Part shown: piece after piece, positions 11,615 to 64,000 of the stretch
How positions within the stretch are numbered: position 1 is the first letter of the stretch
How the letters are laid out: every line of letters starts with the position of its first letter
Assembly (NCBI RefSeq): GCF_008831285.2
Contig: NC_045147.1
Coordinates: forward strand, 18,640,854 to 18,704,853
DNA length: 64,000 nucleotides
Direction: 5' to 3'
Source: Nymphaea colorata
Taxonomy: Eukaryota; Streptophyta; Magnoliopsida; Nymphaeales; Nymphaeaceae
Position numbers and translations under genes: made by a program
Notes under the pieces: model-generated
Told to the model about the DNA's origin: nothing
The model's database searches: none
What the model saw: only the letters and a program-made list of their open reading frames with translations

Positions 11615-11616
<2 letters not shown>

Positions 11617-11656: not shown

Positions 11657-11658
<2 letters not shown>

Positions 11659-15416: not shown

Positions 15417-15426
15417 CAAAAAAAAA

Positions 15427-23884: not shown

Positions 23885-23955
23885 TGGGGTAACACCTACA
23901 CGAATCGAACCAAAGACAACCGCCTGCCGCACCAGTTAGGTTATGCTCTTTGAGG
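23885..23955 (-). repeat. tRNA-derived SINE-like head
   Basis: On the minus strand a Pol III A-box-like TAACCTAACTGGTGCGG is followed about 20 bp later by GGTTCGATTCG, a near-consensus B box. It does not fold as a complete tRNA. The same block occurs in the right unit at about 39,895-39,965, so it predates the duplication. Confidence 0.5.
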
Positions 23956-24668: not shown

Positions 24669-24838
24669 CTGATACAAGAAATATGGTAAATGAGAAACTT
24701 GAGGTGACTAAGGCGAGGCAAAGAAATTAAAACTAGAAAAATAACAGACAACCAAAAGTGAACTACGGACAAAGGAACCAACAAATGAAAAAGGACTAAA
24801 ACAAAGCCTGGAACCAAAATAGTTAGAAAAACAAGAAG

Positions 24839-25191
24839 ATTCATTCTCAAGAAGGGTATGAACCAACACAATCATCTCATTAATGACCACCTTTATAAGT
24901 CATTGAAGATCACTCATAATTTTCAATACAAAACTAAACTTTTGGGGTGTTACCATCCACCCCCGTTAAGGCACACGCATCCGCACGTGTGGGACCCCAG
25001 GTCTGAGTGTTGAAACTGTTCTGATACCACTGTAACAACCCGACCCACTACTCGGCTCGGGCTCCTGGTTCGGCAGATCCCAACCCACCCGCTAGTAGTT
25101 TCGACTTCATTCTCAAAAATGTTATGAACCAAGACAATCATCTCATTAATAACCGTTTTTATAAGTATACGGAACTAAACTTTTAGGGCAT
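24839..25191 (-). mobile_element. TRIM-like miniature LTR retrotransposon remnant, left unit only
   Basis: Two direct repeats of about 85-110 bp (24,841-24,952 and 25,107-25,191) share TTCATTCTCAA, ATCATCTCATTAAT and AAACTAAACTTTT. Between them, read on the minus strand, a primer-binding site TGGTATCAGAACA (25,017-25,029, close to the initiator-Met tRNA type) follows an LTR end GGGTTGTTACA. A polypurine tract GGGGGTGGATGG (24,953-24,964) precedes the other repeat. The internal region is under 100 bp with no coding sequence, which defines a TRIM. The repeat at lower coordinates lacks the GC-rich LTR end present in the other. The right unit has no such element. Confidence 0.72.
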
Positions 25192-32600: not shown

Positions 32601-33324
32601 ACATAGCTGGTGGAAGCCATGGCCATGATAACTGCCAGGTCACCTGTCTCAGAATCTCAGATCTTAACTAAAGCCGAAACCTAAGAATAACCAATACAAA
32701 AGGAACTGGAAAAAAAAGAACGAGATGAAGAAGTGAGAAGTAGGAGAAAAGGTAAAAAGTCGTATCCACGCAAAGCAATGGAAACAAATTATCCCCGTAT
32801 TCTGTCGTAGCCAGGCCGCTTTTATACCTTTTGATACCCCAATAACCCACTCTGCTACCTGTCCTTGTGGCAACAAAGAGAGCAATTATACTCATCACCT
32901 CCGTAATCATTACAACCACATGGGTGACCATGGAAAAGCCTGTTTGAAGAGGATGTGACTGCAAAACACTAAAATAATAGCATAACCGCTCCCCATCTGA
33001 TGATCAGCCCATCAGCGACCACCATATCTTATGCTTGATGGAGATAACGGAGAAAGAAAATCATAGAAGAAGGAAAACGGGAGGAAAAGAGAGAGAGAGA
33101 GAGAGAGAGAGATTGCCTGCTCCTTTTGCAGCAGCACCAGCTACGAGGGTTAAGGGCACCATGACAGGAGTGGTACTATACTCGGCAACCCATTGTGGGA
33201 TCTCTGTCACATTCAACTCCTCAAAGGCCACTACTCCGCCTTTGTTCAAACATAAAACGGCCATGCAGAGCACCCACAATGCATATCTACGAAGTCCCAA
33301 CCATCCGTTCTCTGTCCCTGCCAT
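26623..33324 (-). CDS. PAE: Pectin acetylesterase (CE13, Notum-like), 421 aa, 12 exons
   Basis: Exons in transcription order: 33,117-33,324; 32,103-32,185; 31,788-31,917; 31,584-31,657; 30,670-30,756; 28,633-28,757; 28,467-28,527; 28,306-28,359; 28,124-28,201; 27,904-28,009; 27,657-27,802; 26,623-26,736. Together they give 1,266 nt, open to TGA. The enzyme removes acetyl groups from cell-wall pectin. A signal peptide covers about residues 1-32 (basic start, then [13 protein letters not shown]). Family blocks follow in order: [67 protein letters not shown] with nucleophile Ser201, [14 protein letters not shown] with Asp297, DPHGHW, SCFAHCQ with His364, AVGDWYF and CPYPC-like [12 protein letters not shown]. 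The length is typical of plant members. Intron 1 has a GC donor. The start is the ATG before the signal peptide, about 80 bp after the TATA-like sequence. The broken sister copy lies 8 kb away. Confidence 0.95.
33116..33117 (-). other. Non-canonical GC splice donor, esterase intron 1
   Basis: Exon 1 ends ...GGAGCAG and the intron begins GCAATC, giving AG|GC. The frame and the family sequence KGA-V-CLDG force this junction. The left copy has the same AG|GC (GCAAGC) at 18,760-18,761, so the GC-AG intron predates the duplication. Confidence 0.85.
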
Positions 33325-39300: not shown

Positions 39301-40515
39301 CAGGATTTAGTCTCGAGCTTTTCACATTAATTTCCGAACCAAGTCCAAAAACTGAATGCCAAAAGCGGGGTGAGCTTTGGGCTAATTAAAAACACTGTTT
39401 GAGTAAACCCTGGTAACAACAAGTTCCGAATATGCGATCCAAACCCCAAACAAGTTTTGTTCATGTTCGATTTCAGGTGTAGCTGAAAATGGTCAGGTTT
39501 CGAGTCCAAAAGGTGCGAATCTTGGTTAGGTCGAAGTCGCTTGCTTCCACTTTTCATTTTATATTAAAACTCAACATCACTTGGTTCGGGTTGATGTAGT
39601 AATAAATAGCCTGATGCAACGCCCAAGACAGGTGCACTGGGTCCATCTGGCTCCAGATCTCATCCATTGCAAGTTTTTGGGACGGATAAACGATCCATAC
39701 ACAATTATAAAGAGAGTTCCAAGTGGAAAAACCAAGATACTTTTGAGTCATGAGATTTCCTAGTGAGCAGGCAGTAAACCACCCATCATCCAAAAAAGAT
39801 GCCCAAAGGCCCCTGCAACCTGCCCCAAGAGTCTTAAGTTGTGTGAAGAACTAAGTGTGGTATGGTGCACTAATCAACTAGAATGTTGTATACATTGGGG
39901 TAACACCTACACGAATCGAACCAAAGGCAACCGCCTGCCGCACCAGTTAGGTTATGCTCTTTGAGGGCGTCATGAGATCTTGAAGCATCCTGTTTTAACA
40001 TGAGATCATTTCCTGGTTTAAATTCAATTTCTAGTCATTTCCCTGTCGTTCTAGTTGATCTTTGATTTTTTTTTCCTTTTGGGTAGAAATATTTTTGTAC
40101 AATTTTGCTTCACAATGCATCATGCCTACCACTAAACAGAACAACAGGATCTTCTCTACACCATTTTCGTTATGGTGGGCACTCCTGCAATGAAGCGACT
40201 GGCCATGACCGTGTTGAAGAAGAAAAGCATCCGCTACCTTGGCAGCAGAAGAATACAACGCTCAAAAGGCATGGAAAAAAGAAGCATATCTTGCCATACA
40301 AGGTGAAGAAAAGCTCGTGGTTGTAGATTTCATCCACAAGACAACAAGCATTACACCGAGTCCTTTTCCAAGCACAAGAGGATACAATCGATAACAAGTT
40401 TGAAAATTAGAACCATATGTCTCTGAAAAATTGAAAAACGACTCTGTAAAGAGGACCTGTCATAAACATTTGAGACATTATAGACAAAAAATCAGAGATC
40501 AGATTGATGACACGT
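33325..40515. other. Region between the esterase promoter and L18 exon 3, right unit
   Basis: No gene is recognised. The likely esterase promoter begins it: TATA-like GGGATATAAATAGG at about 33,401-33,414, in the minus-strand sense CCTATTTATATCCC. The rest is duplicated noncoding DNA plus the two right-unit-specific blocks (35,161-35,830 and 36,849-38,365) and a second copy of the SINE-like head near 39,895-39,965. Confidence 0.6.
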
Positions 40516-41842
40516 TCAGAAGTCAAGACCATGTTCACGGGCAGAATCAGCCAAAGCTTTAACACGTCCATGGTATAGATAACCCCCACGATCAAAGGCC
40601 ACCCTGGTTATGCCTTTTTCTAGACAAACCTTGGCAATGGCTTCTCCAACTCGTTTTGCAACTTCCTGGTACAAGAAATATGGTAAATGAGAAACTTGAG
40701 GTGACTAAGGCCAACTCTGGTAAGAGGCAAAGAAATTAAAACCAGAAAAATAACAGACAACCAAAAGTGAACTACAAAGCAAGGAACAAACAATGAAAAA
40801 GGACTAGCACAGAGCATGGAACCAAAATAGCTAGAGAAACCAGAAGAAATAACAGTATGCAGGTAATGGTATGCAACCCTAACATGATGTTTCTTTATGG
40901 ATTGTAAAAATTCAGAAGGCCAAATGGTTCCTAATCTTTTACTCAAGGCCATGCTTGCTGGGGAATGACTATCTTCCCATTGAACCCTGCAACTTCCAGG
41001 TCAAGAAAGTATTTTGTACCAGGCTCAACAGTTTCAAGTTCATTAATACACTACCAAAAGGGAACGAACCGTTCTCCAGTTGTACTCTAGTTCAAAACTT
41101 GAAAGTACAACTGAAGGGGCAACTGAAGGTGTCCACCCTTGATCATTGCAGGAAAGGAACGGAAAAGGATATTTATGGCAAAGCGCCAACCTGCTCTTGT
41201 CCACCAGAAAGAAACAACAGGCTAGCCTTCCTGAGCTGGGCCACCAAAAACGGTTGAGTCAAAGAAACTTGAAACCCATTATTCTTAGGTTTTTATTATC
41301 AAGGTTTTTCTAGGGTATCGATCTGCAATTTTTTTTCCTTGAGAAAATTTCAGGAAATCAAAAAATATAAAACATATAGAAAATTGTGTCAATTTTGAAT
41401 TTTCTATTATTTTATTGCAAAAACATTGACAAACATTAAAAACAGTTATTAAAATGTTAAAAGAAAGCTTTTTTTTTTAAAAAAAAATTGCAAAAACAAA
41501 ATTGATATTCTCATGATGCCACTTTTACAAAATATTGTGACATTTCACTTTTTTCATTTTCCTTTATTTTCCCACTTCTTTTTGCGCTTTTTTAAACAAT
41601 GCCTAAAATCACCAATTCGAAATCTGAATTAACATCTCTAAGGAGTAAGGAACATAAACTAGAATTCCTTGGGGTAAGAAAAGAAACTATTGAATGATGA
41701 GATTCTTGGAAAGGTAGCTGTTGCATCTATATCGAACTTTACACCAGATATGAAAGTCAATCCACAGTCTGAGTGCTTATCACCTCATGGCCTTTACTGA
41801 GTTTCATGTTCCTTGAACAGTGTGTGTGCCACTGTGCCTGTA

Positions 41843-45159: not shown

Positions 45160-46459
45160 AGTTCTCCTGGATTGAGCTCCGCCAACTCCACCGCTGTTGC
45201 CTCACCTCGCTGCCCCGGTCTGGGCGTGTATACCTTATCGTGAGTCAACATTTTACTCAAATATTCCTCTCTTCTTCAAAAATGACATTTCTTTTTCCCA
45301 TTATTTGATCCACAGGCCGACCAAATCAGTAGAGAGACTCTGGATCTCAGTCCAGTATGTAACCAGTACAGACCCAACCCGGTGCCTATGTAAACCGTCC
45401 GGATCAGGATATTCTAAACACGTTGAAAAATCAGATTTATCTAATTCAGATACACCCAAGAAAAACCAAGATATAGTTTTCACTTGTTCTCATATTATCC
45501 TGCTATGTTATAAATTTTTGTGTTTCTTTTTCAAAAAGAGTAATCTAGGACTAATCCGACTCTCACTTGTTTGTAGAATTTTATTTTATTAATTTTTCTG
45601 AAATCTATTCTGGCAAACCCAAATATTTGTTTACATGAGACAATTAGGATTAACATTAACATTCGTTATTGCCCTTCTTCCCACATGATAAAACAAAATA
45701 ATGCAGTAAAGTGCTTCGGACTCGAATGTGTCACCTTCCCTCATACATTCTTGTTTAAGTGTTCATTTGCATCCTGCGCTTCCTTCATCTACTGCCCGAA
45801 TTGACGAAACTTTTAACCCACCTTCTTGAGACATGTAAGAAATGATTCGTGCAGCTTGTACCACCTTGAAATAAAAATGACTGGATCATATCTTCTCATG
45901 CAAATCTCAAGAGTCCCCACGGGATCAATTAACTTTGACGAGTTTCCAGCACCGTCGAATCAATATGTGCAAGTGGATCAGACTCTCATAGCGCCAAATT
46001 TTGAAAAGTCATCGTATTCAAATTGCAAACAAAAACGTCTCAACATAGTTAATACAGGACCGTCTACCTAAAAAGCTACATGAACATCCTCACCCTTCAT
46101 CGAAAAATGGTCAAGGGAGGGATCTCGATAGAGCCCTGCACGAATGGGCGATTATAAGGGATTGTAGCGCTGTAATATTCTAAGAATGCTTCAATGGATT
46201 TTGAACTTCCTATTTCATGTTTGGTAGGTAAGAATCAATTGCACAAAGGATTACAAAAATAAAAATGTCATCTATAAGGAACAACCACACCAAGAAAAAC
46301 AAAGAAAAAACAAGAAGACTTCTAAATGTTGTGAAGCAAACACTAAATTATAGATATTATAAACAATTTTGACAGACCATCAGATCATCTAGATATATGC
46401 AACATAAAAGACTAGGAGTAGCATATCCCACTGCATTGTGTTGTGCTTCTTTCTCCAAC
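45160..46459. other. Intergenic region between L18 and YKT6, both on the minus strand
   Basis: It holds the upstream region of L18 and the downstream region of YKT6. I see no gene and no clear TATA box for L18. Short AT-rich words such as ATCAGATTTATCTAATTCAG near 45,430 resemble the degenerate repeat at the left end of the window. Confidence 0.55.
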
Positions 46460-49400
46460 TCAAAGAATGGTGCAACACTGATTAGTTTTCTTTGCTTGCT
46501 TGTAGAACATCTGTCACATGCAAAAAGCAGGACGTTATCAGAAAGCATCAGCTAGCATGACAGCACGGCTACTGGTCCACCAATTTTGATCAAACAAAAA
46601 AAGGACACAGTATTCTTGTTTATATGTCAATTAAGAATGCATGAACCACACCAAGTACAAACACGTCCACCTGGAGAATTCTGCAAAACATGTCAAACGT
46701 ATTGCCTTCTGTTCAAGGAGTCCGCGGCAAGCCAAATGTGTATCTCGATACAGTATACTAGGCCACCGGCATAATACACACCTTCCATGTGTTACAACCA
46801 CTATGAGTTTTGGTATTATATTAACTTTGTGCATCAGATACAAATTGTGCTTTCTCAAAATGACAGCCACTCCGGCCATTTTTTAAGAAGATACATTCTG
46901 GAGAAACAGGATAGGATTGGTTAATACAACCACCTTTTGTCCAGATTTCTTAAACTAGGATTACCACACTAGAAGCTGAAATTGAAATTTTAGAAGTCTA
47001 GTTGTAGACTTATTGCACAGGTACCAACACTGGATAATTTGGAATTGGCTGTGGCAGCCTCTGCCAAACGACATCCAGTAGCCTATCAGGGAGTTCGCGG
47101 CATCAAGTGTGTGATCATGGCTCAGACCAACAGCTGATGACACTGCTACCTATTCTTATTCGCTTGTTCTGGTGGCGGAGAGGATGGCACCTGTCTTCTG
47201 GCTTAAGAAGGCTGTCATCTGGGTCTAGGTCAGGGCACATGACATCTAACATGGCTTTGACAAGCAAGTTCAAAATTTTTTTCAAGAAGAGGGCACAATT
47301 ACTTTTTTCTTTTGATTAATAAAAGGACGACTTTCTTTTTTATCTTACACAAATTTTTCGGAAGTACCACATCAAATGATCATGAATTTTAGTTATGAAA
47401 ATGCCCATGCAAATGGTATGGTATTCTCCTATGACAAAGGTCAAGGGCTTATCTAGATGAATGTTCTTGAGTTAAATGTATCCACTTTGCAAAATGAACC
47501 AAGACATCACATCCCATGGTGAAACAACCATACACACACACGCATGCACAAAAGAGAGAGAGAGAGAGAGAGAGATCTACCTGAGATGCGGCACTCAGAT
47601 CTGAACTTTTCTCCACTAAACTATCCAGCCTCTCACCTCTTGCAAGGACGCTGTCAATAGTTTTATGCTGCCTCGTTCCAGAAATTTATGGCACAGAGAC
47701 ACCAAACCGTGCATGTTCATGTCAGTAAAACATCTTAAAAAAAGATCAAATACAGACAAAGTCATTCATGTTTGGGTATTTACTTGATTATGAAAAATTA
47801 AAGTTGTTGAACAAACTAAGAGCTAGATTGATACCAAATAAGATATTCTGCCTAGACAAAGCCTCCAAGATGCACCAAATAAATGATAGCACACCAACTT
47901 CATATTAAAGATGTCTTTTTTTTTTTTTCTTTCAAAGAAAATATAAACAATAAAACAAGTTCACTCACAAGAATAATTTTGGTTTCATCCAAATCTCGCT
48001 GAATCTTCATCAACTTGTCAGCTTCTGCGGGGTCCTGAAATTGCAAGTGCACCATAAATATCATACACTTCAAGAATAAAAGCTAAAGCTGACATTCATA
48101 GATTTCAAGCCAGCAGATGAGTCACAACTTTATAACTAAACAGTACGATGAAAAGCTAACTGGATAACTTCATAAGACTACAAATACATATACCTGAAAC
48201 TTGGTAAGTGATTCATTCAAGTATGGCCAAGGTTGATTTGCATCTGTTTGCACCCTCCTCCAAGAATCTCCAAAATTTTTCTCATATTCATCTAGGACCT
48301 GAGATTGTTTTTAGTTATATTCACAATTCATCTGCTTAAGAAGTTCCAGAAAACCATAAAGAGAGTAGCAGCTGGTCCAGTTATATAAGCATGTAAATCC
48401 AGTAACATGAACATCTGACATGCAAAGAAGAAAATGCAAAAGAATATGGACAGCAATAGTTGTCATCAAATGCTAATAGCAGTCAGTGACCGGATCAACT
48501 ATTAACTTGCTTAGGTACTCAGACAATTAGATTTTGGGACCTTTCTCTCACACTTTAGTAACTGAATTTCTACCAAAATAGCATAACATTTAAACTGTTC
48601 CATCCACAAAAGTAGCCGCTGGGAAGATCTAGCAGCCATTCTGTAGGCATAAACATGACATGTTCCATACATTAGAAAAGGCACGACTCATAATGGCTCA
48701 TATGTGAACAACGTAAAATAGTACAGAACCTACATTTTCTGAAATGGTTGTTGCCTGCTCTTCCAACCATCAAGGAAAACTAGAAAAAAATGCCTTTGCA
48801 AGAAAATTTAAAATACAGGCAAGTTTTTCTTTTAGGGATTAGAAGTGCCTTTGTTCGTTACCACACAGAGACTCACAGAGGCAAATTCAATCTCCAAAAC
48901 AGGAGTAAGTTGCTTGACATGCGAGCAATAAAATATCAAACAACTGAAGAATCACTTAACTGGCTATTAACAGAAACAGACTGAGAAAACTCTCAAGATA
49001 CAACTTCCAGTATAGCTGAAATTGTTTATGAGAAAAAAAGACTTCAACAAACACAACAAGAGATGACTTCACAGAACAAGAGAGGTTTCGTCATAAGAAC
49101 AAGAAGGCTTCTCTAGAGCTTTTCAGACGCATTTGTCATATATAAATAGTCATGCCACCACACCCAAAATTTCTGCAAACCACTTACATAATTTTGCACA
49201 GATAAACAGCTATAGATCCTGGAGTACCAAGTCTATTAAGGACATCATTATGAAACTTCTGGTTCGAAGTACTTTTCATCATTCTTAGACCACCTTTTAA
49301 GCACAAGCTTGGCAGTGTCAGTAGGTGTCAAACTTAGGAGGCATTTTACATTTAACAAATTTTTTTTATAACCTTGCTCATCAATATTTAAGTCATGTTT

Positions 49401-52400
49401 CCTCATTTAACATAGCATCTTAAGAATAATACTCAATCAAACAATACAGAAGTAGAACAGAAAAGGATAAGAAAGGCTGTGATGGAGTCATGGGACTTTA
49501 TCAAAAGAAGGGAGTTCTCAGCATACTTAAACATCAACTTTACGCAAAATGTGGAGAAGTTCAACATAATATCGATAAAACTTGCACAAGGGAAAAACAG
49601 GACAGCAGTAAGGATGTGAAAAAGAACCAGAAAACTTCAAGCCACCACATGTTACATGGAAGGACATGTTTCAGACAAATTAAAGAAGTCTTGGTTAAAA
49701 ATAAAAGAAGAAAGGACAAGCAAAAGCAGGAAAAAGGGGGCAAGCACTATAAGAAAAGGTCTGACCTTATTCAGAAGACTGAATGCACTGCGAACAGGAT
49801 AGTGGTCATCCGTGAAGGCCAAGGCACAAAGACCATTTCTGTTGTAAGAATGCACCTTGTATTCTGATAAGGTAGATACGACATAAGCATTTGGATAAAC
49901 CAAAAAGAGCAAAAAAGCACTAACAACAATGGTGGAACAGCACTCCAAGGGAACCACATTCAGGAAATCAACACAAAAAAACATAAAAAATCAAATTAAG
50001 TATAAAAGAAAAAAATAGTCATGTCAAAGTTATGCACATTCTATAAAAGTCACTTACTTCCAAATGAAAGACAACCAAAGCTCAGGAAAGAGCTCACTTT
50101 TAAAAAATAATAGCATAAAAATATCATACCAAATCACAGAATTAAATGATTGCCAGGTATCCTTAATAAACTTCTAGTATCTGCACAATGACACTCCACT
50201 TTGTTTCATGCTAAAAACAAGTCTCTCAGGTCCTTCAAAATTTGTCTTTAAAGATCACTAACCAGGTAAAATGAATTATGTACTTTCTTCTGCGAACAAC
50301 ACGAGGCAGGGGAAGGAAGGTCAAACAAGATTCTAAACAGGTAGGATCCATTCCAAATCTAAGCACTACCAAAGTCAACCTAACTGGATTTCACATAACA
50401 TAATCAGATTCATAATAGAATCTGGAATTAGATGAACAATCTAAGTGAATGTCCTGATTCAACTAGCTTAGGATCCAATATCTACATGCATCTGGATCTG
50501 AACCCAGTGGGGAAAGGGATTTGGATGCAATATTCAGTAGGAAATGAAGGCCAAAATAAGAATTTCAGATCCAGTTCAGATCTGATTTAGGCATTACCAT
50601 ATTCAACCTAACTGGGTTTCACATAATCAGATATATAGCAAAATCTAGATTTAGATGAACAATGTAAAAGGGCTTCCAGATTCATTAGGTCAGGATCCAG
50701 CATTTACAGGAATCTGGATTCCATCCTGGTGTGGAGGTGGATTTAGAAGAAATATTCCGTAGTGAACCCAAGTTGATTGTTAATTGGAACCTAAGCTTCC
50801 TTCAGATCTGACAAATTCATTGAAATTCAATTGGATATACAGGTCTAATGCAAATTTAATATCCCTAGACTTTAATGTCCTGAACTAAAAGACATGATGG
50901 AAACAAAGTAAAGGCTTGGTCAAAAGAAACTGTCCAACTGGAGGAATATGTTTATGGAAGGACAAAAGGAAAAAGGATGCTGTTGGACTTGCTCACAGAG
51001 AAACAGCAGGTCAAGATTTGGAGATATATGGTGCTAAGACATGATGGGTGCAATGGAGGACTGCAATTGGTGATAAAGCCTATGCATGGAAAAGAAATAA
51101 GAATAAATGCCCTATTAAATTGACAACAAACAAATGCAAAGTCTTTCCACATAAAAAGAGGAAAAAAAGAAAAGACCAATGTAAATGGAGAGCCTATACA
51201 AAGTTACAAACTAAGCAATGGAATGCATGCAGACCATGTTCGACCTCATAGTGCAGCATTTTAAACATGCAGGATTGCAAAAAAAAAAAAAAAAAAAAAG
51301 GAAATTCAGAAGGCAAATAAAATTCAATTAAAAACCATATCAATAATCAAACTGTTCCGCTCATGCATGTGTGTTCCCATTAACATACATATAGATATAT
51401 ACGTGCATGTGCACTTCCACGACTCCATGATTCTGCAAGTATATGATGTATTAACAAATGATTACACATTTTTCAAAAAGACAAACAAAAACTGCTAGTT
51501 ACAACCGAATAACTAAATATAGAGCACGAATTAGTATGATGCTTTGAAATAAACATCAGCAAACTGCAGAAGAAGTGCAAAATATCAAGATGACACATAC
51601 ACAGTAGCTAAAAGTATGAGGGCACCAATAGAGTGCTAGAATTACATGATGCTACATTCCTTGCTTGTAAAGCAACTAAATGAATACCAATCATCAGGAA
51701 CCAGCCAATATTCACTTCCTTTTCAAATGATATTCTTCAACAGAAGCTAAATGGAGAGCCAAAGAGAATGGCGTTCGAAGCACTAACTTAGATGCTATAA
51801 AATTGCAGTATCATGAAAGTTGATCGTTCTCTGAAAAATAGACAGCACTACTAGTTGAAAGCTTAGTTAGATGATCATACAAACACGAACAGAAAAAAAA
51901 ATATATATATATCTGTCCAACATTGTCACGAACTCTTGATAAACAAACATTTTAAGATGCATATGGCCAGAGTTACGGTGCTGCTCCCACTCTACCATCT
52001 ATCTTTTCACTTAGCCAGACAAATTCTCATGAAATCCTTCTTGTTCACAAAAGAAATTCAAAAAACCAATAACCAAATAATTTCTTCCAGGAACTAGTAT
52101 GGCATCCAATGATTAAAATGTAAAAGAAAAATTATAGCACATAAGGGTGCCAAAAGGAAAAACCACGGAGAAAATTCAACAAGCCAGCAGAAGGAGGGAA
52201 AAACGAAAATTATTAACGTGGCTCAAAATTGAAACGATTATTAGGTTATAGTTTATTTAGAGAATCACAAGAATTGCAGGCACAACGATCTGGAGGGCAT
52301 GGAAATTTCTCGCCGAAGAAAACCATAATTATGGCACAACTCGAACAGATTCTTGGCTAGACAATTCCGATTTATAAAACCGAAGATCCAACATAACTGA

Positions 52401-52759
52401 TCCTTCCCTGTCTGACAAAATGAAACCACCCACACACTAGATCGCGAAAAGGATCCCTCCAAATTTTCAGCGATTAGAAGAAGAATATTGATGAAGGGCC
52501 ACAAGAAAAATATCGAAACACAAAGGAGAGAGAGAAAGAGAGGAAAAAGCCAAGAAAGAGAGAGGAGGGGACCTTCGTGCTGGACGGACTGGCGCTGGCC
52601 GGGAGCCGTCCTGGCAGCAACGGTACGAGAAACGAAAAGGATGAATTCCTTGGCGCTCGACCTCTGGAAGTAACCGAACTGGCTGACGTCCGAGGCGTTG
52701 GCCAGCATCACCGCCGAATCCCCAGCGCATTTCATCACCAGCAACGCCGTGATCTTCAT
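46460..52759 (-). CDS. YKT6: YKT6-type R-SNARE (longin SNARE), 197 aa, 6 exons
   Basis: Exons in transcription order: 52,573-52,759; 49,766-49,863; 48,194-48,298; 47,969-48,034; 47,581-47,667; 46,460-46,510. All introns are GT-AG and the 594-nt frame is intact. YKT6 is a vesicle-fusion SNARE acting at ER-Golgi, Golgi and vacuolar/endosomal steps. The longin domain runs from MKITALLVMK to about residue 130 (QFGYFQRSSAKEF, YKVHSYNRNGLCALAF, DDHYPVRSAFSLLN). The SNARE motif follows, with zero-layer Arg162 in SVLARGERLDSLVEKSSDLS. The C-terminus is CCTIL: Cys193 is the palmitoylation site and Cys194 the prenylation (CaaX) site, so it is membrane-anchored by lipids. Length equals that of known plant YKT6. 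A TATATATA lies about 110 bp upstream of the ATG. A paralogue starts 1.2 kb away in the opposite direction. Confidence 0.97.
50361..50790. repeat. Diverged tandem dimer in YKT6 intron 1, period about 228 bp
   Basis: The block starting GCACTACCAAAGTCAACCTA (50,362) recurs from 50,591 as GCATTACCATATTCAACCTA. Both continue with an ACTGG(A/G)TTTCACATAA segment, AATCTGGA words, an AGGATCCA(A/G)(T/C)AT(C)T word and a late GGATTT..GAAATATTC. Divergence is considerable. No coding sequence is involved. Confidence 0.7.
51281..51300. repeat. Poly(A) run in YKT6 intron 1
   Basis: A run of about 19 A occurs in the plus strand. It is not flanked by an identifiable element, so it is recorded only as a homopolymer. 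Confidence 0.85.
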
Positions 52760-53958
52760 CTCCTCCCCTCTCTCTTTCTGTCTCTCTGAGGATTCACCGG
52801 AGAGCTGTCACCACGCAGAATCGACGCTTCAGAGAGAGAGGTACAAGGCCACGGGCCGATGGAATATATATAATTACAACAATGATCAAAGAACCAGAGA
52901 GACAAGACAGAGGGAAGGAGGAGAGAGAACCAACGAAGGAAAAACGTAAGGCTTAGGGAGAAGGAGAGCTCGAATAAAGGGAAGGCGAAAAGAATCCTGC
53001 CTCCTTTTCCCGGTTCTTTGAAGCATAACGCTACCGATTGGGGATGGAGAGGTCTCCATTTCGAAGATCATAACGATCGAATTACAGTATTATTAGTGGT
53101 AAACGAGATTCTTCCCAAATCCCAACCAAGTGGTCGGTTCAAGCTTGGTGTGCTCGGATCCAGGTCCAACGCAACCCCACCAGGACGCACATGATCACTG
53201 GATCTCGGATCCGATCCAGATCCAATCTTTTCAGATGCATAACCACACTTTATTACCCAAATAATTTTTCTCTGTTTCTTCCATTTCTTTTCGACTCACT
53301 TATTAGGCCCTTCCAATGGGAGAAGTTATGTTGTCTTTTTCTTTTTTTTGGTACTCTTTGGTAGTTGTCGGCCTAACTTTTTTTAATCATGAAAAAGAAG
53401 ACAACCATGTGTAGATAATAAAAAAATGTATTCATCACGACCCGATTCATCAAATATATAGGTTTCAGATTTGGGGACGTCAATATGTTTCTAAAAGTCC
53501 GACTTCATCAGGTTGAGACTCCGAGTTGGGTTTGAACTTTTTGAAACCAAACCCCTACTTTTACAAATAAAATGGAGCGGATGAGGCTCGGGCATAGAAC
53601 TTGCAGATGGATCCAATTGGTATTCAGATCTTGATTTCTTTATCGGACCCATCCAAATGGATACGTGGTCCGAATGGTTCGCTGGTAAAGCCAACCCATG
53701 GACATCCCTTGGACAGTCCAAATCCAATCTCAGGCAGATCCAGGACCCGACTGCCAAAATTTATGGGGTCCGTCCACTTACTAATGCAACAGTAGGCGCG
53801 TCCCGCCCCAACGGCCAACGTTGCTCGCGAGATCGTCCGGAGACGTTCCCGCCATTTCTCTTCCTTTTCTTCTTCTTCTTCTCCGATCGTCCTTCCAAGA
53901 CTGTGGTCTACTTCCTTTTCTTCTTCCGTCTTGTTTTTTTCCTTATCGAGAAAGAGAG
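52760..53958. promoter_or_regulatory. Head-to-head intergenic region between the two YKT6-related genes
   Basis: The two start codons diverge from this 1.2-kb stretch. On the YKT6 side there is a TATATATA at 52,865-52,872 and a CT-rich leader. On the other side, near 53,796-53,853, are GC-rich words including GCGCGTCCCGCCCC and TTCCCGCC (53,846-53,853), the latter an E2F-type site. The middle has repeat-like words built on GATCCAGATCC. A shared bidirectional promoter is possible but not shown; separate core promoters seem likelier given the distance. Confidence 0.5.
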
Positions 53959-56900
53959 ATGACGATCACGGCGTTGCTGGTTCTGAGATCGGAGGCGGCC
54001 TCGGCGACGGAGCCGGTGATCCTTGCGAGCGCGATGGAGATCAAGCAATTCGGGTACTACCAGAGGATTGGAGCCAAAGAGGCCATCTTATCGGTTTCTC
54101 GGAAGCTGGCCAAGGCCACCCATCCTTCACAGCAGAATTCCACTCAGCACGACGGTTCGTCTTTCCTTCTTTCTTCCGTTTTCAATTTTTGCCTTTCCCT
54201 GTTGTCCGCATTTTCTTTAGAAGTTCCATACTTCGATTGATATACTTAGAGATCCGCGTCTCTTTTGTAGTTTCCGACGTGTTACAGTTAGTTTACCGCT
54301 CATAGATGACAAGATCGAGTCTTGTATCTCGTTCTATTGTAGACGATTTTCCATGTAGATGTAATGAAATCGTGCTCCTGAGTTAGCCTTGCCGTCCGAT
54401 GATTATAGCGCTTTTTCTTCGTCAAATTTGTTAGAAGCTATTGACGCCAGCTTTCACGTTTTAGCAAGTAACGTGATCTTAAATCAGCACCGGAAAAGAA
54501 GCGGGAAGGAAGGGGGGGGGGGTGTGGAAGAAATAAACTCAATCTGAAAAAATTGAACAATTAGGAACAGTTTCTGGTCTTCCTTTAAACATTTAATGTG
54601 TGATATGCTGTCACAGCCGTCATTTTGCTCCTTGATGTTGCAAATCCTTTGTTTCATTGATTTTATAAAGAAATGTTCCAGAACACAAGGTACACTATTG
54701 CATCCGAGATGGTCTCTTTGACGTGATATTTGTTGATGAGCATTACCCAGTGAAGACGGCGTTTGGCATTCTGAACAAGGTAATACATAAATTGGATCCC
54801 AAGAATTTGCTGTTGTTCATGCTAAGTGTTTAAAATGTTGAATTCAAGATCGCACAAAGTGTCATCTAGTTTGTGCTGGAAATTTCACTTCAATCTTTGT
54901 TCTCATTGTGGTCATTCTTGCACTTTGTCTCACTGTTGTGCAGTCATTCTTTATTTTGTCGTTCTGATGGTTTTGAGGTTGTCTTCTGATGGATGTGATG
55001 TAAAGGTTATCTGAAACTTGTCTGAGTCTACATGATATGTAGATACTCTTTTCTTCGAATCTACATGACTTGTCAGCTGCAGTTAATTATCGAACAATTT
55101 AATTGGTCTCTTCCGCTGTGTTTGCCTCGGTTGCTTATTTTCCATGTATCTAACAAGAAAATGTTCATTGATGAACGTGAGACGGCTATATCTTTCACGG
55201 CTATTCAAGCCTATCCTAGCTCAAGTCTACCAGTAAACATGCTAGTATAATCCCATTGCTGTCGAGTGCCATGGAATGCCTCCCTTCCCTTGAAGTTGTA
55301 TTGCTAACAAAAACTTTGTGAATTTTCATTCATTGGTTTCTTCAAATGTCTCAAATTGAAATTGTTGCAAATAACTCATTTTTGCTGACTGGACATTATA
55401 TCTTTCCGTTCAGTGGTCATGCAATGATTTTACTTTTAGCATCTTGAAAACCCATGCTTCTTTCTTATTCCAACGTACAATTTTTTTGGGTTCTTCCATT
55501 AATTTAGGTCACTACTATCACAACGACAATGACGATTGTATGCTACTGTTGAGAATCCAAATTGGCCTCACGATTGTAACTTGAATTAGTGGAAACTGCC
55601 CGGCCACTTGTCTGTCTGTTGATTACTATTTCTAGTTCATGAAGATGCAAACCTTCATATACGAGTGTTTTGTTGCTCATTTAAGCATCACCCTTTGGGA
55701 ATGAGTGCTACATGACTTGTATCTATTCCTGGCTTCTTGAATGAAGGCTTGTCATTAGGTGAATGTACAAAGCTTTACCATTCAAGAAAATCCTTGACTT
55801 TTAACTTCGAGACAATGAGGGAAAAAAAGAGAATCTGATGCCAGGTACTAGATGAATATCAGAAGGCTTTTGGGGATTCTTGGAAGACAGTGCAGATTGA
55901 TGCCAATCAGTCGTGGCCTTTTCTAACTGAAGTTCTTTCAAAGTTTCAGGTATTTGCTTTACCTGAGAAACCTGTAAATCTGCAGAATCTTATTTTAGAT
56001 TGGCACTAAGTATTGTTGATGGTCTGTTTGAAAATATCTTAAGGTAAAACTTAAGCTTCTCATGATAAGAAAGATACTTGTTGCTATTCCAGGATGCTGC
56101 TGAGGCTGACATGATTATGACAACTCAGTGGGCTTTAGATGAAACCAGAATTGCTATTGTGAGTAGTAGTTGATTTCTGTTAGCTTTATCTTCAATAAAT
56201 TAGAAAATGCCAATTAGGAAGTGGGCTTGCACATTGCATGCGTCCTAATCATCTGAAGTTGTGTTTGTTACCACTGCCACTGTGAGTCGGCTGTCCAGCT
56301 ATTTTCTTTCGCTTCACTTTTAATCATGTGTTACCTTTCGTTATATCATCATTCCTAGCAATATTACCAGAATAGGAAATCGAGCTTCCCTGAATTTGTG
56401 CAAACAATGTTCATGCATCGTGGCAACAAGTGCTTCGTTAAGTGTTAAGCATTAGTATCTGCATACATGCAAAATATCAGTTAAGTTCTCCATTAAAGAA
56501 ACACAAGGATTGCCTGTCTTCTAGGTTCATTTAATGTCACATGCCATGAGTAAAGTGTCTTTGTTTAACGACTTACAAAAAATCCACATGCTCAACAGCA
56601 TTTACATGCAACAAGAGCAGTTACAGGTCTTCAAGCTACTACTGTGCAATGGATCCTGGATAAAACAGTAAACATTTCTTGGCAATTTTGGTTATCCTTC
56701 ATTCTGGGTTGTTCATTGGCGCTTATCAAGTGCCCAGAAACCCTGGATACTAGCACATATCATTTTGACACAATAGATCATGATATGCTTGCGGGGTCCA
56801 AGAGGGACCAAATCAGAAAACTCTGACGAGTAGAAGAGAAAGTGAAGTTGCGTAGATTGTAGAAGGACTAATATAATTTTAGTCTTTGGTGAATCTTAGC

Positions 56901-59257
56901 ATGAATTTTTGAGATTAAGAACTTCAGATGAAATCAAGGGAGTTGGTGCAGTAGTTGGGCTTTAGTTGTCTGGAGTCAGATTCCAAATCCCTTCGGCACC
57001 ACCCTCTGCATAAGCCTAAGTATGCATAGGTCCTGGCCTCAACAGTATTAGCCACAGGGTATTATTCTGCTGGAAGTGCAACTAAATCTCATGATCTCAG
57101 ATCTGTTTCCTTGCGTTAGAAATAGGGCTCGTGGAGTGCCAAGATGGATGGACGAGAGAACCATGTATTTGCAAACTGCAAAATTGTATGAGTATGCTTG
57201 AAACGCATAAACACTGACAAGAGTCATGAAGTCTGTTTGCCTCGAGTTCATATATATGACTGGTAGCTTTCACGGCTTTACTCAATTTTTTACATCATTA
57301 GCATTTTTCTTTTCCTGAAAGGAATTGTTTGCTGATATTTATTTTTTATCGAGTCTGATGTCCTTGAAGTATGCAGTGGTACTAGTTTTTGATATATGCA
57401 CTACATGTATCTATTTGGGAACTTAACACAACTCCAATAATTGTAAATTTTCCATCAAATCTGAATAAGGTTCCTGGATGTGTACGGGAGAATAATCATA
57501 TGTTCGTCAGTATGGTGTATCTGTTCTTTACATATTTAGTCTAACTATCATGCTTTACTAAAATACTGTTGACTATGCCATTGAACATTGGTCGTGCCAA
57601 ATGGATATCTCGTGCAAACAAAGAATGGAAATGCTAATTGTCATCATTTTCAACTGTCATTCTCTGCAGAAGTCGGACGAAGCAAAGGGACAACTTCAGT
57701 ATTTGGCTGAAGATGATAATGAAGAACTTACAACTTCAACATCCATTTCAGAAACCATCAAACGCAGGAAATTAACTGTAAGAGTTTAGTGTTATTCTAT
57801 TGGACGGTAAGGCTCTTCCAACTTTCCGGCTACCAAGAGAACGAATGGCTGCCAACACTAATATAGAAATCTAGGCCACCTTCCTTTTTTGTCATATATA
57901 ACCTCGGAAGCTACATAAGGTCAACTTAAGACGAGTTATTCAGTGTTAAACATTGATCATATTCATGACCGCAGGCTCCAGCATCAATCTGCCGTTTTCT
58001 GCTCATTTCGATTTTGTACAACTTTGCATTCTGGACATATGCATAAAAAGTTGACTCACGAACTATTCATCTGCTCACAACTTATTTTTGAACTGTTTCC
58101 CATAGAATGATTTTTCAAGATATGCAACCAACAAAAAACTTGGTATTCATACCTGTTTATAATTGTCTCCTTCTAATGTTTACCTGTAGGAAAATGATGT
58201 AGGAGAGGGTACAGGTGCTGCAGAGGAAGATGACGCACAGGACAGGAATACGCTGGGTTCAGAAGAAATGGAAAAACAAATCGATCTCATTGTCGAAAAG
58301 ATTGAAAGATTTACTGAACAAGTAAGCTTTCTCTTTTAGAGGAAAAAGAAACGCTTCCTAGAAAATCTGGATCGTCAACTTGAAGTATTTACCTTTTTCA
58401 TTTAAGACAAGAACTTGTCTTCATTAAAGCGACTCTATTTTAGTGGTCGAGAAGGCAGTCGTCGGATATGCGTTGAGGGCCCCAAATGCATTGGTAAAAG
58501 TGAGAAGCGTCTTCCTCTTTCCTCATGGAGAGGCTCAGTCTTCAAAGAGAGGCATGCCTCTCACAACTCCCTAAAGGCACCATATCACACTAAAAGGACA
58601 CATCTAGCTTGGCATTTCTACACTCCGGAGTTATAACATGAATACAAGATTCTCTTTGGTGAACAGTGTTATGGAAATCATGAAAAAAAAAAACTGCAGG
58701 ACAAAACAAGTGAAATGGAAGCGTGGTGGTGTATTGGAAATTGAATAGAGTGTTCAAGCAAACCAGTGTTTCCGACTTTTTTTGGGTGCATATGCAATAT
58801 TTGTCTTTTTTCTAAACGTAGTATTAATCAGTCATTTTCATTGCGTTGGCAATTACTTACAATTGTTTTATATGTTCAATCGCATCTACAACCAGTCGAT
58901 GCCAGATGAGGCCCTGTTCCAGGGTATAATAGGAAAACCTGGTTGCTTGTGCAGGTCTCGGAGGTCCTAGAAGCAGGAAAAGCTATGTACAAAGAATTGA
59001 GCAATGATTTTGAGGAGCGTGTAATAGCGTCAGTTCAGATCTACAGAAGTCCATGAATTTCTATTGCATGCACGGAGCAACAAGAAATGAATTTTCATTG
59101 ATTCTCTCTGCTACTTTACAGGATTCATCAGCAGCAGGTAGAGGCATGGCAGGAGGAGATAAAAGAGCTGCGCCTGCTTGATGGAGTCAATGAAGAAGAC
59201 GTTCAACGCCTTCAGAATGCAATATATCTCCTTCACTCCTTCAGTAAGGCCCAGTGA
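53959..59257 (+). CDS. YKT6-like longin domain fused to an acidic linker and coiled coil, 327 aa, 9 exons
   Basis: Exons: 53,959-54,154; 54,682-54,779; 55,845-55,949; 56,093-56,158; 56,599-56,667; 57,670-57,777; 58,190-58,321; 58,955-59,028; 59,122-59,257. The total is 984 nt, one open frame with GT-AG introns. Exons 1-4 (residues 1-155) are a YKT6 longin domain: MTITALLVLR, QFGYYQRIGAKEA, VDEHYPVKTAFGILNK, VLDEYQKAFGDSW and DAAEAD...LDETRIAI. Exons 2-4 have exactly the YKT6 lengths (98, 105, 66 nt) and phases. Then, where YKT6 has its SNARE exon, five different exons follow: an unplaced stretch HATRAVTGLQATTVQWILDK; a basic TIKRRKLT (possible nuclear signal, residues 209-212); an acidic AAEEDDAQD; and a coiled coil from EEMEKQIDLIVEKIERF to about residue 320. 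There is no SNARE motif, CCTIL or membrane segment. I do not recognise the C-terminal half with certainty. It may be one chimeric gene or two merged by my model. Confidence 0.7.
56940..57065 (+). repeat. Possible tRNA-derived SINE in the longin-chimera intron 5
   Basis: TTGGTGCAGTAGTTGGGCTT resembles a Pol III A box and GATTCCAAATCCC, about 30 bp on, resembles a B box. A run CGGCACCACCCTCTGC follows. The combination is suggestive but not decisive. Confidence 0.3.
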
Positions 59258-59553
59258 GCCGACTCTCCAAATAATTTCCATCGAACCAGTGCCTCCTGTC
59301 CAACCGTGTGGGGGAAGTGCAGACCCCTTTTCTTACTTTGCACGGGTTACAAGCAAATGGTGATGCGTGGAGAGATGAAGATTCTTAGAGAACCGCAATC
59401 AGAAGGTATTCGATCATCTTTCTCTTTTCTCTCCCACTCATAATTGGAGGCATCCTTCGGATGGATCAAGGATGCCTTCAAGAAAACAAATTCATGAAAC
59501 AATGAGGCTGCACTATTTGTGAAGGCCTTCTGTTATCTGGGGTATGTTTCTCT

Positions 59554-59590
<37 letters not shown>

Positions 59591-59660
59591 TGACAAATTC
59601 ATGAAACAATGAGGCTGCACTATTTGTGAAGGCCTTCTGTTATCTGGGGTATGTTTCTCT

Positions 59661-59707
<47 letters not shown>

Positions 59708-60423
59708 TGATGAGGACCCTATAAGTCTTCCAGGTCAGGGATCCTAAAAGGGCCTTTCCTCAAGACATGTATTGTACGTTAGTAGTCAAGTTTGGCTTGC
59801 TCTTTCTGCTCAGCAAACGTAAAAAAGAAAGAGAGGAGGAGGTTTGGCAGGTCCAGTACCACATTATCGCCATCAGATGCTATTTTTTGTAACTTCGACG
59901 CGACTTTTTAGTCTAGATAGATGCAACAAGTTGGAAGCATATGGCTCAGATTGCCACTTGTTCAAATCCGATTTGGATATCCTACAAGGCAATTAGAATC
60001 AAATTCGCATGAAAAGAAGTCACAAAATGTGCATCTGGCCCATCGGCCGCCAATGCTAAGTCTTCTGCAGGCCATGCTCACAAGTATAGCATTTGGGAGC
60101 TCTCTGTGATGCCTCAAATCTCTTTTATTACAGATGCCTCCTTGCGAAAGAAAAAATATTTTCTCGTGTTCGATATACATAAAATTTCTGTAAGTGATCT
60201 TGTTCAGGAAGAAGCCTCATTGGGCTACATCTCAATAGAGCACGCACACGAGAATCAGTCCTCAACAACACCCCCACCCCCACACCAAGAAAAGAAAAAG
60301 GAAAACAAAACAATAGAAGTAACAAAGACAAACTACTTTTACAAATGAGGAAAAAGTCAAAAGATATTCATTTCTGATGGTCCTAAGACCACCTAGTGCA
60401 ACTGCTAGCTTGCACTTGCCAAT
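59258..60423. other. Convergent 3' region between the longin chimera and ferredoxin C2
   Basis: The two genes end towards each other here. The only clear structures are the 107-bp tandem duplication with its GA runs (59,486-59,705) and short C-rich and A-rich stretches near 60,270. No coding sequence is recognised. Confidence 0.6.
59486..59705. repeat. Near-exact tandem duplication, 107-bp period, each copy ending in (GA)n
   Basis: The segment beginning ACAAATTCATGAAACAATGA at 59,486 is repeated from 59,593. Both copies run through CTTCTGTTATCTGGGG to CTCTCGGAGAGAG and a long GA run, then ATGGTGA. I see no mismatch outside the GA-run length (longer in the second copy), so the event looks recent. 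It lies about 230 bp past the stop codon of the chimera, possibly within its 3' UTR. Confidence 0.95.
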
Positions 60424-62420
60424 TTACTCGTCAGCCATTGCCAACTCCAACGCATAATCATCTCTCTCCTGCCAAACCGATTGGGGAAGCAATGTAAGAA
60501 ATCTGCCGACTTATGTCGTAATTCTAACTCACAGCAGAATTTGTACTTTGAGTCAAATCACTTCACAGTTCAAGATCAAAATTAAGAATAGGCCTAGTAT
60601 TGCAAAAGATAGTTAATAAGATGTTAGAGAAGAGCGGCGGAAAAAGAGACAAGAACTTACTATAGGACCTCTAGCGAAATATCTACCGAACTGTAACCAG
60701 TAAACCTGCACAAAGATAATGAACTGGTTGAGCGGAATGATGGGAGCAAAAATCCTATGTGTAGATTCTTAAGAAAGCGCTACCTCATCTTCATCCTGGG
60801 TTTCGACTACGAGATCAGACGATGGATATCCCACACAAAGTAGTGCATAGCCCTATAAACCAACAAACATGATTAACGGTCTTCCATAATGCATGATGCA
60901 GCTGCAATTTAAGGTACCTAATATACAGAGGCCGGAAAACATATGAACGGCAGTTTCAGAAAGACAAGTTAGATTAAGAATCCTGTTGCAGAAAGCTTAT
61001 TGTCATCATGCACGGTAAGCATATTAAGGTATCATCTTCCCGTGGATGAGACAACATTATCTTGCCTTGAAACTGGAAGCTTTGCCTCCTAAAGCAATTC
61101 TTGTGGATATCGATAAGCACTCGCACTCAATATCTTGGCATAACCCGGATAAAGAGAAGTACCTTAGCTTTTAGTTCAGCAGATATACCAAGGGCCTCCG
61201 GTTGTCGAATTTCTCCAGACTTTATCCTGACAGCACAGCTGGTACAACACCCTGCTCCATGGAAACACTCTGTTAAAGTACCAGTCTTCGTGGTACATCA
61301 GAATTGTGCATCAAGCTAAGGAAAAAAGGTTACCGGAGGCCAGTAGCTGAGCCACATGGTGGCTAGTTGCCCACAATCAGCCTCACAAAGTTACTTTCAT
61401 ATTATGTATAATGTTTTGATATATTTGAATGTTTATATATATAAGTGCCCCACAAAATTTAAAGATATTGAATTAGTGCCCCCACCAGAAAATTTTTTTG
61501 GCTCTCCTAGTGCCGAAGGCATCATCATAGAATCAGAACATGGAATTATGATAATGAAACAAGTGGAAAAGAGATTCCGTGTTGCAGCATTCACAACTTA
61601 GAACAGATAAAAGAGGTCTCGATTAAGGCCACTGCTGCGGGCAACAATGGATTCGCAGTTCCTTGATTTCTTCTAATTAGGACACAATGTTCTCCAGGGA
61701 TACCAATTTCCGTGATGGCTTACTACGAAGAAGCTAGAGATGATATCTTCTACAGCTAAAACCATTTCAGCACTTGTTCTGCATTTGGGTTATCTCAGTA
61801 AGGTAGTGTTAGAAAAAAAAAAGCACTAAGAAATGAAACTGCAGACCTACAGTATAGAGTGAACTGCTGGTCTTCTTTATGTTGCTCATTCATCTTAAAT
61901 GATGCAAAATCAAACATCTTTTTTTTTTTTTTTGTTAAATACAGGCAGGAAGAGAAACCCTTCAGAATACCATGTCTGCAAGCAAACGGCAGCGTGATGT
62001 CTTGCGATTCTGCATAGTGTAATATGTATTCATCCTGAAGAAAACCGAGTGAAACAGAGCTGTTCATATCAACGGACGCCAAAATCGCTCACGGTGGACA
62101 CGAGTGAGCGCTTCTTCAATCAAAACTGAAAATAAAGAAAGTAAAAACAAAAAGGGAACTGAGAATCCAACCTCGGGAACTTGGAAATGGTGAACGACTC
62201 CCCTCTTCGTGTCATGAACAGTCACCTTGTGCATCCGAACCTGGGGAGCGGCCACGGCCGACGATGCCCCATTCGTCTGGGCATCGACTCCGGTCCCGAC
62301 CTGGGAGCTTCGGCAGATTACTCGACTAGCAATGTTCTCGTTCTTCTTCTTGTTCTTGTTGGCAGGGAAGGAAGTAGAGAGACTCCACAGAGAAGCTATG
62401 GAAGCCGATGCTGCTGTCAT
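60424..62420 (-). CDS. FDC2: Ferredoxin C2, chloroplast precursor, 186 aa, 6 exons
   Basis: Exons in transcription order: 62,172-62,420; 61,971-62,034; 61,163-61,251; 60,784-60,852; 60,661-60,705; 60,424-60,468. The total is 561 nt, open to TAA, all GT-AG. FdC2 is a plastid [2Fe-2S] protein related to ferredoxin, with reported roles in photosynthetic electron transfer and chlorophyll metabolism. Residues 1 to about 40 form a transit peptide rich in Ser, Ala, Lys and Asn. The domain opens with MHKVTVHDTKRGVVHHFQVP. Cluster ligands are Cys102, Cys107, Cys110 (ACRHGCCTSCAV) and Cys140 (ALLCVGYPSSD), spaced CX4CX2CX29C. The C-terminal extension typical of FdC2 follows: ETQDEDEVYWLQFGRYFARG, then ERDDYALELAMADE. 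The ATG at 62,418-62,420 is the first in frame; the frame stays open further upstream without another ATG near. Confidence 0.96.
61340..61515. repeat. GTGCCCCCACC-type dispersed element in ferredoxin C2 intron 2
   Basis: Words typical of the GGCGGAGCCA family occur at both ends: GTAGCTGAGCCACATGGTGG on the left and AGTGCCCCCACCAGAAAATT then GGCTCTCCTAGTGCC on the right, with an AT-rich body. It is probably a decayed non-autonomous element. Confidence 0.3.
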
Positions 62421-64000
62421 CGCTGGTGTTCCTGTGCAAGAAGGAGGGCAAGGTGGTACCAACGGACGGTCTCTTGGAGTCGGAGAAGGAGATGTTGCAA
62501 GGCTGAGGAACCAAACGGTGAGATTGGGCAGCGAACACAGGATAAGATTTCACACGTGTCTCGGTTACAAAGGCTGGACGTTGATTTCGCCCACACCCTT
62601 CTTGATTAAAAAACAAGAAAAGCTAACTCCTCTCCCAACTGCAGAGTTGATCGTGCTTTAGATTTCAACTTCGAAGTTTTGTTTCAAAACTCTGACAATA
62701 AGACTGTTTTTCATAGTTCAAAGCTTAAAATTATGCTCAAGAATGGATTTGTTCCTGATCGTGTGGGTAGGATTTTAAAGGAACCTAAAATTTAATTTAT
62801 CTGCCAAAGCTTTTGAAAATTCATAGCCAAGCCAATTTAGAAGTGGAATGTTAATATTTGGGCCGTGAAAATGTCATCAATTAGTTCATAGCAAAGACCA
62901 ATTTCGCTTTTAGAATAAAACAGCTGCGTGAATCTTTGTACCGCTACATTGCACCTAACCCACGCTGTAGATTATTGCCTGCAATCGAAAGAATCCTTTT
63001 CCCGTTTCTTAGCCATCGAGATTCCTTCTCCTGTTGCTTCGGATTTCTAAACTCTTAGAGCGAATAACATAATTCGTAGTTGAAAATCGAAAAACTACTA
63101 GTCCTGCCTCTAAATGTTATAACAATTCATACAAGTGGAGTATTAGTCTTTTCATCTCTCAACACCAAATCTACGGAAATATTTCCTTAAGGTAAAAATT
63201 ACATTTATCTTTTCCGTCCCAGCATACCCATAATGTCCTTATGTATAGCTGCTTTTGCAGTTAAGAGTGCAAATGTACGTATTGCACGATACGGGGGCTG
63301 TATCGTACGATACATCCTCATACCCCCATATCGTACGATACATGATAAAATTATTTTTTGTAGTTTTTTACAAAAAAAAAATTTCTTTCTCTTTTTAAAC
63401 ATGTCAAAAGTTGTTAGAGGGAAAAGTTTTTACTAGTTTTTCTACAAAAATCACCTACTTATGTGATAAATCGTCGATTTAGAGGAAAACTTGCTTGTCC
63501 ATAAAAAGGTTTACTCATGGCCCGTGGGGATGATGGGAACTTGATTGATGATAATCATAATATATTATTTGTTGCAAACTTGTAATGTAATCTAAAACAC
63601 TTTAAAGTTCTGATGGATGTTTATTATGTTGTTAAGAATTTCTTATTTATCATTTCTAAATGTTTAGTGTTGTTAATATATTATGGCTTATGAATGATTG
63701 ATGAGTTTTTTTTAATATATATAAAACATGACTTTTTTAATTGATTTTTTGCCTTTCCTGATTTTACCGATTTTTTCTCTATTTTTTTAATTTTTAAATA
63801 TTTTTATGAATTTAAAAATTAATTTACGATACGTTACATTACGTTTACGATACAATGTATAGGTCTATCCGACTGATATGCTACGCCTTTTATAACATTG
63901 TTAGTATGAATTAACTGAATACAATCATACAACCCTGCTTATTGCCCAAGGAAGGGATTTGTGCACCTTAAAACTTTTGGGGTAATTCTCAGATAAAGAA
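62421..64000. other. Upstream of ferredoxin C2; intergenic with a palindrome-rich repeat
   Basis: No gene is recognised. The first few hundred bases should hold the ferredoxin C2 promoter, but no clear TATA box is visible. From about 63,285 to 63,900 lies the ACGATACG-type repeat. Plus-strand frames overlapping 62,181-62,661 are antisense shadows of ferredoxin C2 exon 1. Confidence 0.6.
63285..63900. repeat. ACGATACG-motif repeat element with perfect palindromes
   Basis: The left end contains GTATCGTACGATAC, a perfect 14-bp palindrome at 63,300-63,313, and a second TATCGTACGATA at about 63,329-63,340. CGGGGG and CCCCC arms lie around the first one. The right end, ACGATACGTTACATTACG to CTTTTATAACATTG, matches the fragment at 15,427-15,522. 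The interior is AT-rich and noncoding. The superfamily is unknown. Confidence 0.5.

Follow-up and report, generated by a model that had tools for sequence, protein, structure and literature searches.

A YKT6 duplicate in Nymphaea colorata that may encode an anchorless longin with a new helical tail

Beside a complete YKT6 gene in the water lily Nymphaea colorata lies a second gene, on the plus strand at 53959–59257, in which a YKT6-type longin module is followed by an in-phase tail; its best model has 8 exons and 304 residues. Coordinates are those of the window, the whole stretch of 64,000 nucleotides analyzed here (NC_045147.1, positions 18,640,854 to 18,704,853). We read this gene, called the copy below, as an old duplicate of YKT6 that has turned into an open, soluble, anchorless non-SNARE longin with a new helical tail, a tentative reading to which we give a probability of about 0.43. 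Judged by its sequence, the copy is a duplicate that has lost exons, carries an open tail in phase, has lost conserved residues in a cluster and has changed faster than its neighbor.

A YKT6 duplicate without the SNARE exon

YKT6 and the copy stand head to head and diverge from starts 1.2 kb apart (52759 and 53959). Their products are identical at 89 of 155 residues, and exons 2–4 agree in length and phase (98, 105 and 66 nt), as the original prediction had claimed for the longin module; exon 1 of the copy is 9 nt longer. All eight modeled exons (196, 98, 105, 66, 108, 132, 74 and 136 nt) are open and have GT-AG borders, and the phase-0 end of exon 4 joins four later exons in phase up to a stop that ends at 59257.

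53959–54154, plus strand: exon 1, longin residues 1–65 and the the opening base of codon 66; tblastn identity to YKT6 exon 1 is 52%
54682–54779, plus strand: exon 2, longin domain, 98 nt, length and phase as in YKT6 exon 2; DNA match reached by 1 of 200 shuffles
55845–55949, plus strand: exon 3, end of the longin domain, 105 nt as in YKT6 exon 3; DNA score 75 against a shuffled maximum of 29
56093–56158, plus strand: exon 4, 66 nt as in YKT6 exon 4; the SNARE motif begins here, with layers -7 to -3; DNA score 43 against a shuffled maximum of 30
56159–57669, plus strand: intron 4, the expected site of the SNARE exon; no relic detected
57670–57777, plus strand: exon 5, acidic linker with KRRK (186–189), in phase with exon 4 behind a pyrimidine-rich acceptor
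58190–58321, plus strand: exon 6, acidic linker, then the beginning of an amphipathic helix
58955–59028, plus strand: exon 7, amphipathic helix; the donor GC|GTCAGT looks weak
59122–59257, plus strand: exon 8, helical C-terminus ending in SKAQ-stop, without a cysteine anchor
46460–52759, minus strand: complete YKT6, six exons, 197 residues, with SNARE motif and CCTIL; head-to-head neighbor and paralogue of the copy

The longin domain of the predicted protein is recognized by Pfam at 48.4 bits (cut-off 26.2), and no Synaptobrevin match is found in it. Its PDB matches are five YKT6 sequences (E 1.5e-15 to 2.6e-12) and, behind them, VAMP7 (E 0.00024 and 0.0082). Judged by these matches and by the exon structure common to YKT6 and the copy, its longin domain does not look VAMP72-derived.

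The absence of the SNARE exon and of the CCTIL exon, also part of the original prediction, holds up. Between 53959 and 60500, matches to YKT6 SNARE exon 5 (87 nt) and to the CCTIL exon (51 nt) were no better than chance, 77 and 98 of 200 shuffled sequences scoring as high, so that no relic of either was found; in the same region YKT6 exons 3 and 4 were each reached by 0 of 200 shuffles and exon 2 by 1 of 200. On this comparison we rejected the idea that a remnant of the SNARE exon survives within intron 4 or beyond the gene as far as 60500. Searched by tblastn across the window at E up to 10, residues 153–197 of YKT6 matched the real YKT6 only.

The boundary at which the new exons begin is a true phase-0 join. 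It had been placed exactly at the start of the SNARE motif, which does not hold: in YKT6 the Synaptobrevin match spans 135–192, the exon 4/5 boundary falls at 152/153, and 18 of the 58 matched residues therefore precede it. If the layers are placed by the spacing that we take to apply, the positions of layers -7 to -3 survive in the copy, occupied by I, T, L, T and I, and -2 to +8 are gone, including the zero-layer arginine. The modeled end, SKAQ, does not carry the C-terminal CC lipidation motif, and residues 156–304 are hydrophilic (GRAVY -0.88) and do not qualify as a transmembrane anchor by hydropathy. The predicted product is thus a non-SNARE longin in the general sense of a longin domain without a complete SNARE motif, and it should not work as a YKT6 SNARE.

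That the copy still yields a SNARE, by way of an exon located at another place or beyond a gap in the assembly, has nothing specific in its favor, and we give it almost no credence. No second copy of residues 153–197 occurs in the window. In searches of the plant's own genome (a 407.8-Mb assembly of 783 contigs) at E up to 1, these residues matched, among the best candidates scored, only YKT6, a single-exon copy on contig C758 and, weakly, a locus on C144 (E 0.57). The YKT6-like matches on these two small contigs (L016/L026 on C758, 57.7 kb; L003/L027 on C144, 33.4 kb) are 28–49% identical to this YKT6 and are possibly foreign DNA in the assembly. The head-to-head pair provides the only multi-exon YKT6 loci seen in these searches, and the copy may therefore occupy the place of the second YKT6 of other plants.

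Constraint and divergence in the longin part

Across 152 aligned codons of YKT6 and the copy, three methods gave dN of 0.28–0.30 and dS of 1.17–1.45, hence dN/dS of about 0.2–0.25 over exons 1–4, which suggests that past constraint acted on the longin part of the copy. If dS is shared evenly by the two branches, dN is too small for the copy to have been neutral since the duplication. Because dS lies above the water-lily duplication peak of about 0.9, as given in part of PMC7015852, the pair is probably older than that peak.

When a single human YKT6 served as outgroup for residues 18–154, 21 changes could be assigned to the copy and 2 to YKT6, with 32 left unpolarized. Of 65 residues common to this YKT6 and human YKT6, 23 are changed in the copy, and the changes are unevenly spread: 4 of 11 in residues 1–30, 12 of 19 in 31–72, 3 of 25 in 73–137 and 4 of 10 in 138–152. 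The contrast between 31–72 and 73–137 is strong (Fisher P = 0.0009), for boundaries set after the changes were known. According to passages of PMC8000380 and PMC7696345, the positions that touch the SNARE domain in closed Ykt6 (a helix and strands) fall in 31–72, and mutation of F42 opens the protein. In the copy, Phe42 of this hydrophobic face is lost (F42 to S45), as is Phe39 (F39 to A42). With both phenylalanines and 12 of the 19 conserved residues of the docking stretch changed, clamping of YKT6's SNARE motif in trans by the copy is unlikely. Should inherited partners be bound, residues 73–137, with 22 of 25 conserved residues kept, would be the likelier site.

The four modeled tail exons

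The tail was scored with a small coding model (trained on 1908 nt from YKT6, exons 1–4 of the copy and one long open frame), per base, against overlapping open windows from introns. As high a score was reached by 11 of 227 windows for exon 5, 1 of 134 for exon 6, 50 of 488 for exon 7 and 0 of 130 for exon 8; the known exons 2, 3 and 4 of the copy gave 6 of 289, 28 of 244 and 50 of 544 on the same test. Exons 6 and 8 also stand out in total score (8.9 and 9.0). By these scores exons 6 and 8 look coding and exons 5 and 7 weakly so. The original prediction had five additional exons and 327 residues; our model has four and 304. A 69-nt stretch at 56599–56667, which from its length we take to be the ninth exon of the earlier model, was rejected as intron-like, with 337 of 515 open intron windows scoring as high in its own frame.

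The modeled protein is acidic, as had been claimed, with a pI of 4.65; it has a single cysteine overall and none in residues 156–304. The candidate for the possible nuclear signal of that prediction is KRRK at 186–189. A coiled coil had also been proposed. Its amphipathic character is borne out, since the helical moment of 217–300 was matched by 0 of 1,000 shuffles (2 of 1,000 for 218–250), with no significance for 263–300 alone (83 of 1,000) or the linker 156–216 (431 of 1,000). The coiled coil itself is not: a/d hydrophobicity, a score used without a control, is high only in windows near 216–253 and near 271–298.

For the tail, no Pfam family passed its cut-off and no convincing PDB match was found. 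Matches to Fib_alpha, a Nuf2_DHR10-like family, UPF0335 and others, all below Pfam cut-offs or at E ≥ 0.011, were set aside as chance helical matches. No relatives were confirmed among viral contigs (6 pattern matches) or prokaryote genomes (34). In the plant's own genome only three places match the tail: its own locus, a decayed fragment on contig C6 and, at E 2.17, a stretch of 23% identity that we take to be chance.

Evidence for decay or for two genes

Several results count against a functional longin with a coding, constrained tail. Exons 5 and 7 total only 2.4 and 1.7 in coding score, values exceeded by candidates within introns (4.1 for the best internal and 3.1 for the best initial stretch of intron 4, 3.2 in intron 2), and a stretch of intron 6 outside the model, 58444–58493, reaches 6.8. 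A second frame of exons 6 and 8 scores almost as high as the modeled one, and the exon 7 donor looks weak. In the longin part, residues conserved with human YKT6 have no significant advantage in retention over unconserved ones (42 of 65 and 28 of 53, P = 0.26, with 34 similar positions excluded), a result that fits decay too. The remaining points come from the C6 fragment, which spans exon 7 and most of exon 8 and is one of four decayed pieces of the same gene found elsewhere:

L034 (contig C6), 5359–4840: decayed copy of exons 7–8, 73.5% similar to window 58749–59235, introns included; frame broken
L035 (contig C4), 4259–4376: decayed copy of exon 2; mismatches by codon position 3, 6 and 8 (17 in 74 bases, too few to judge)
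L040 (contig C8), 1501–1583: decayed end of exon 1
L041 (contig C6), 1501–1599: decayed intron 1/exon 2 border

Identity to the C6 fragment is 0.716 in exon 7 and 0.805 in exon 8, compared with 0.844 for the last part of intron 6 and 0.688 for intron 7, and exons 7–8 are no better kept than the adjoining introns (mismatches at 43 of 187 exon and 60 of 292 intron positions, P = 0.57). The 43 exon mismatches fall 15, 18 and 10 on the three codon positions, without a third-position excess; in this small test, made without an outgroup, the third-position share is below the roughly 0.42 assumed for a well-constrained window copy measured against neutral sequence (P = 0.009), and an absence of constraint would fit it (P = 0.20). 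The comparison lends no support to constraint on the tail. The scattered fragments on C6, C4 and C8 may have been left by a second copy, or they may be pieces that were captured. Separately, L036 on contig C12 (4841–4672) reproduces YKT6 exon 4 and the intron sequence beside it at 79.7% similarity.

These results give weight to decay, in which a once constrained paralogue lost its SNARE end and is now functionless, whether transcribed or silent, the tail being a run-on that stays open by chance. We regard this as a serious possibility, although not a probable one. The lack of codon-position signal in exons 7–8, the weak-looking donor, the retention of conserved residues at a rate not significantly above that of others, the lopsided polarized changes (21 for the copy, 2 for YKT6) and the decayed fragments on three contigs all speak for it. 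It has to contend with eight modeled exons that are all open and bordered by GT-AG despite synonymous divergence above 1, with dN/dS of about 0.2–0.25 across exons 1–4, with losses of conserved residues concentrated in one stretch, and with exons 6 and 8 that look coding in an amphipathic tail.

A further serious rival, though an unlikely one, is that the locus instead holds two genes. In one, exons 1–4 would run on past donor 4 and stop after VSSS, giving a longin-only protein of about 159 residues comparable to the Sec22-like one of rice; the other would lie separately downstream. Intron 4, at 1.5 kb, is the longest of the model, and an in-frame ATG stands at 57601, ahead of exon 5. The stretch 57601–57669 scores as intron does, however, its value being reached by 218 of 515 open intron windows, which disfavors an own start there. 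The best ATG-to-donor stretch in intron 4, 56780–56829, scores 3.1, no worse than exon 5 and yet far from the 44.4 of the true exon 1, which was part of the training set. A longin-only plant Sec22 is on record in part of PMC2779197; against a separate gene here stand the phase of exon 5 after exon 4 and its pyrimidine-rich acceptor.

A possible non-fusogenic longin and its known counterparts

For a YKT6 duplicate turned non-SNARE longin, we propose that an old inverted local duplication produced two head-to-head genes, one of which remained a normal YKT6. From the other, both SNARE exon 5 and the exon for prenylation would have disappeared, and four downstream exons of equal phase would have been added. 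If, as we infer, the gene is expressed, its exons are joined as modeled and the protein is stable, the product would be soluble, with 304 residues forming a longin domain, a partial SNARE helix that holds layers -7 to -3, an acidic linker and, as its tail, an amphipathic helix. Since it has neither the zero-layer arginine nor the CC anchor, and none of the C-terminal SNARE layers, it should not complete a YKT6-type trans-SNARE complex. With Phe39, Phe42 and much of the docking stretch altered, it should also neither take up the closed fold in which YKT6 shields its lipid nor clamp the SNARE motif of YKT6. Its likeliest mode would be that of a permanently open, unanchored longin whose preserved residues 73–137 contact partners, be they inherited or new; the helical tail may self-associate or recruit a second protein. 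The claim of a YKT6-derived anchorless longin with a replaced C-terminus remains the best reading of the sequence; the regulatory role proposed with it, binding YKT6 partners without fusing membranes, is weakened by the altered docking stretch. It is conceivable but doubtful that this is a lineage-specific gene for a non-fusogenic scaffold, in which a longin domain relieved of autoinhibition, its docking face and the SNARE motif having gone together, is joined to a new self-associating tail, and that it faces its own YKT6 over a 1.2-kb divergent promoter region.

The closest plan is that of human VAMP7b, whose localization differs from that of VAMP7a according to excerpts of PMC3123573. VAMP7b is a splice isoform of the human VAMP7 family with a frameshift, whereas the copy is a separate, YKT6-derived gene with its own exons. 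The same excerpts place the longin-only isoform VAMP7i in the nucleus, and loss of the SNARE motif and anchor can therefore relocate a longin. In the account in part of PMC2779197, the rice Sec22-like non-SNARE longin Q6UU98 resembles the copy as an anchorless plant longin that lost its SNARE region by genomic deletion; unlike the copy, it is Sec22-derived, consists of the longin domain only, without a new tail, and has a confirmed transcript. Phytolongins (Phyl1/2) are likewise plant longins in which the SNARE motif was replaced, with variation on the SNARE-binding alpha-1 side, as described in part of PMC2779197. They are set apart by those descriptions, and by that in part of PMC4861013, as VAMP72-derived proteins with a transmembrane anchor and a Phyl domain. 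YKT6 itself, an R-SNARE, shares with the copy the 89 identical residues and the lengths and phases of exons 2–4 but has SNARE exon 5 and CCTIL, both missing from the copy, and a docking stretch that is changed in the copy. Among the matches listed in the open-access literature we found no gene for a non-SNARE longin that descends from YKT6 and bears a new tail.

If expressed, the copy would bring the YKT6 branch, through a gene of its own, among the non-SNARE longins and would offer a natural test of longin surfaces, autoinhibitory ones being lost with the SNARE motif and other contacts kept. It would also raise the question of whether a SNARE and a non-fusogenic relative of it are co-expressed from one divergent promoter region. 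If the copy is decaying, it represents an ordinary outcome of duplication.

Other features of the window

No tRNA was found in a window-wide search, and no Rfam family was found in 46000–64000. Just downstream of the copy, at 59480–59710, a stretch of about 105 bases ending in a GA microsatellite is tandemly repeated. Intron 1 of YKT6 contains a short direct repeat (50357–50540 and 50585–50762, 73% identical). Farther away, 11483–25844 and 26173–41523 form a large tandem duplication with several blocks at 86–92% identity, and open frames in both of its copies have the look of what we take to be pectin acetylesterase.

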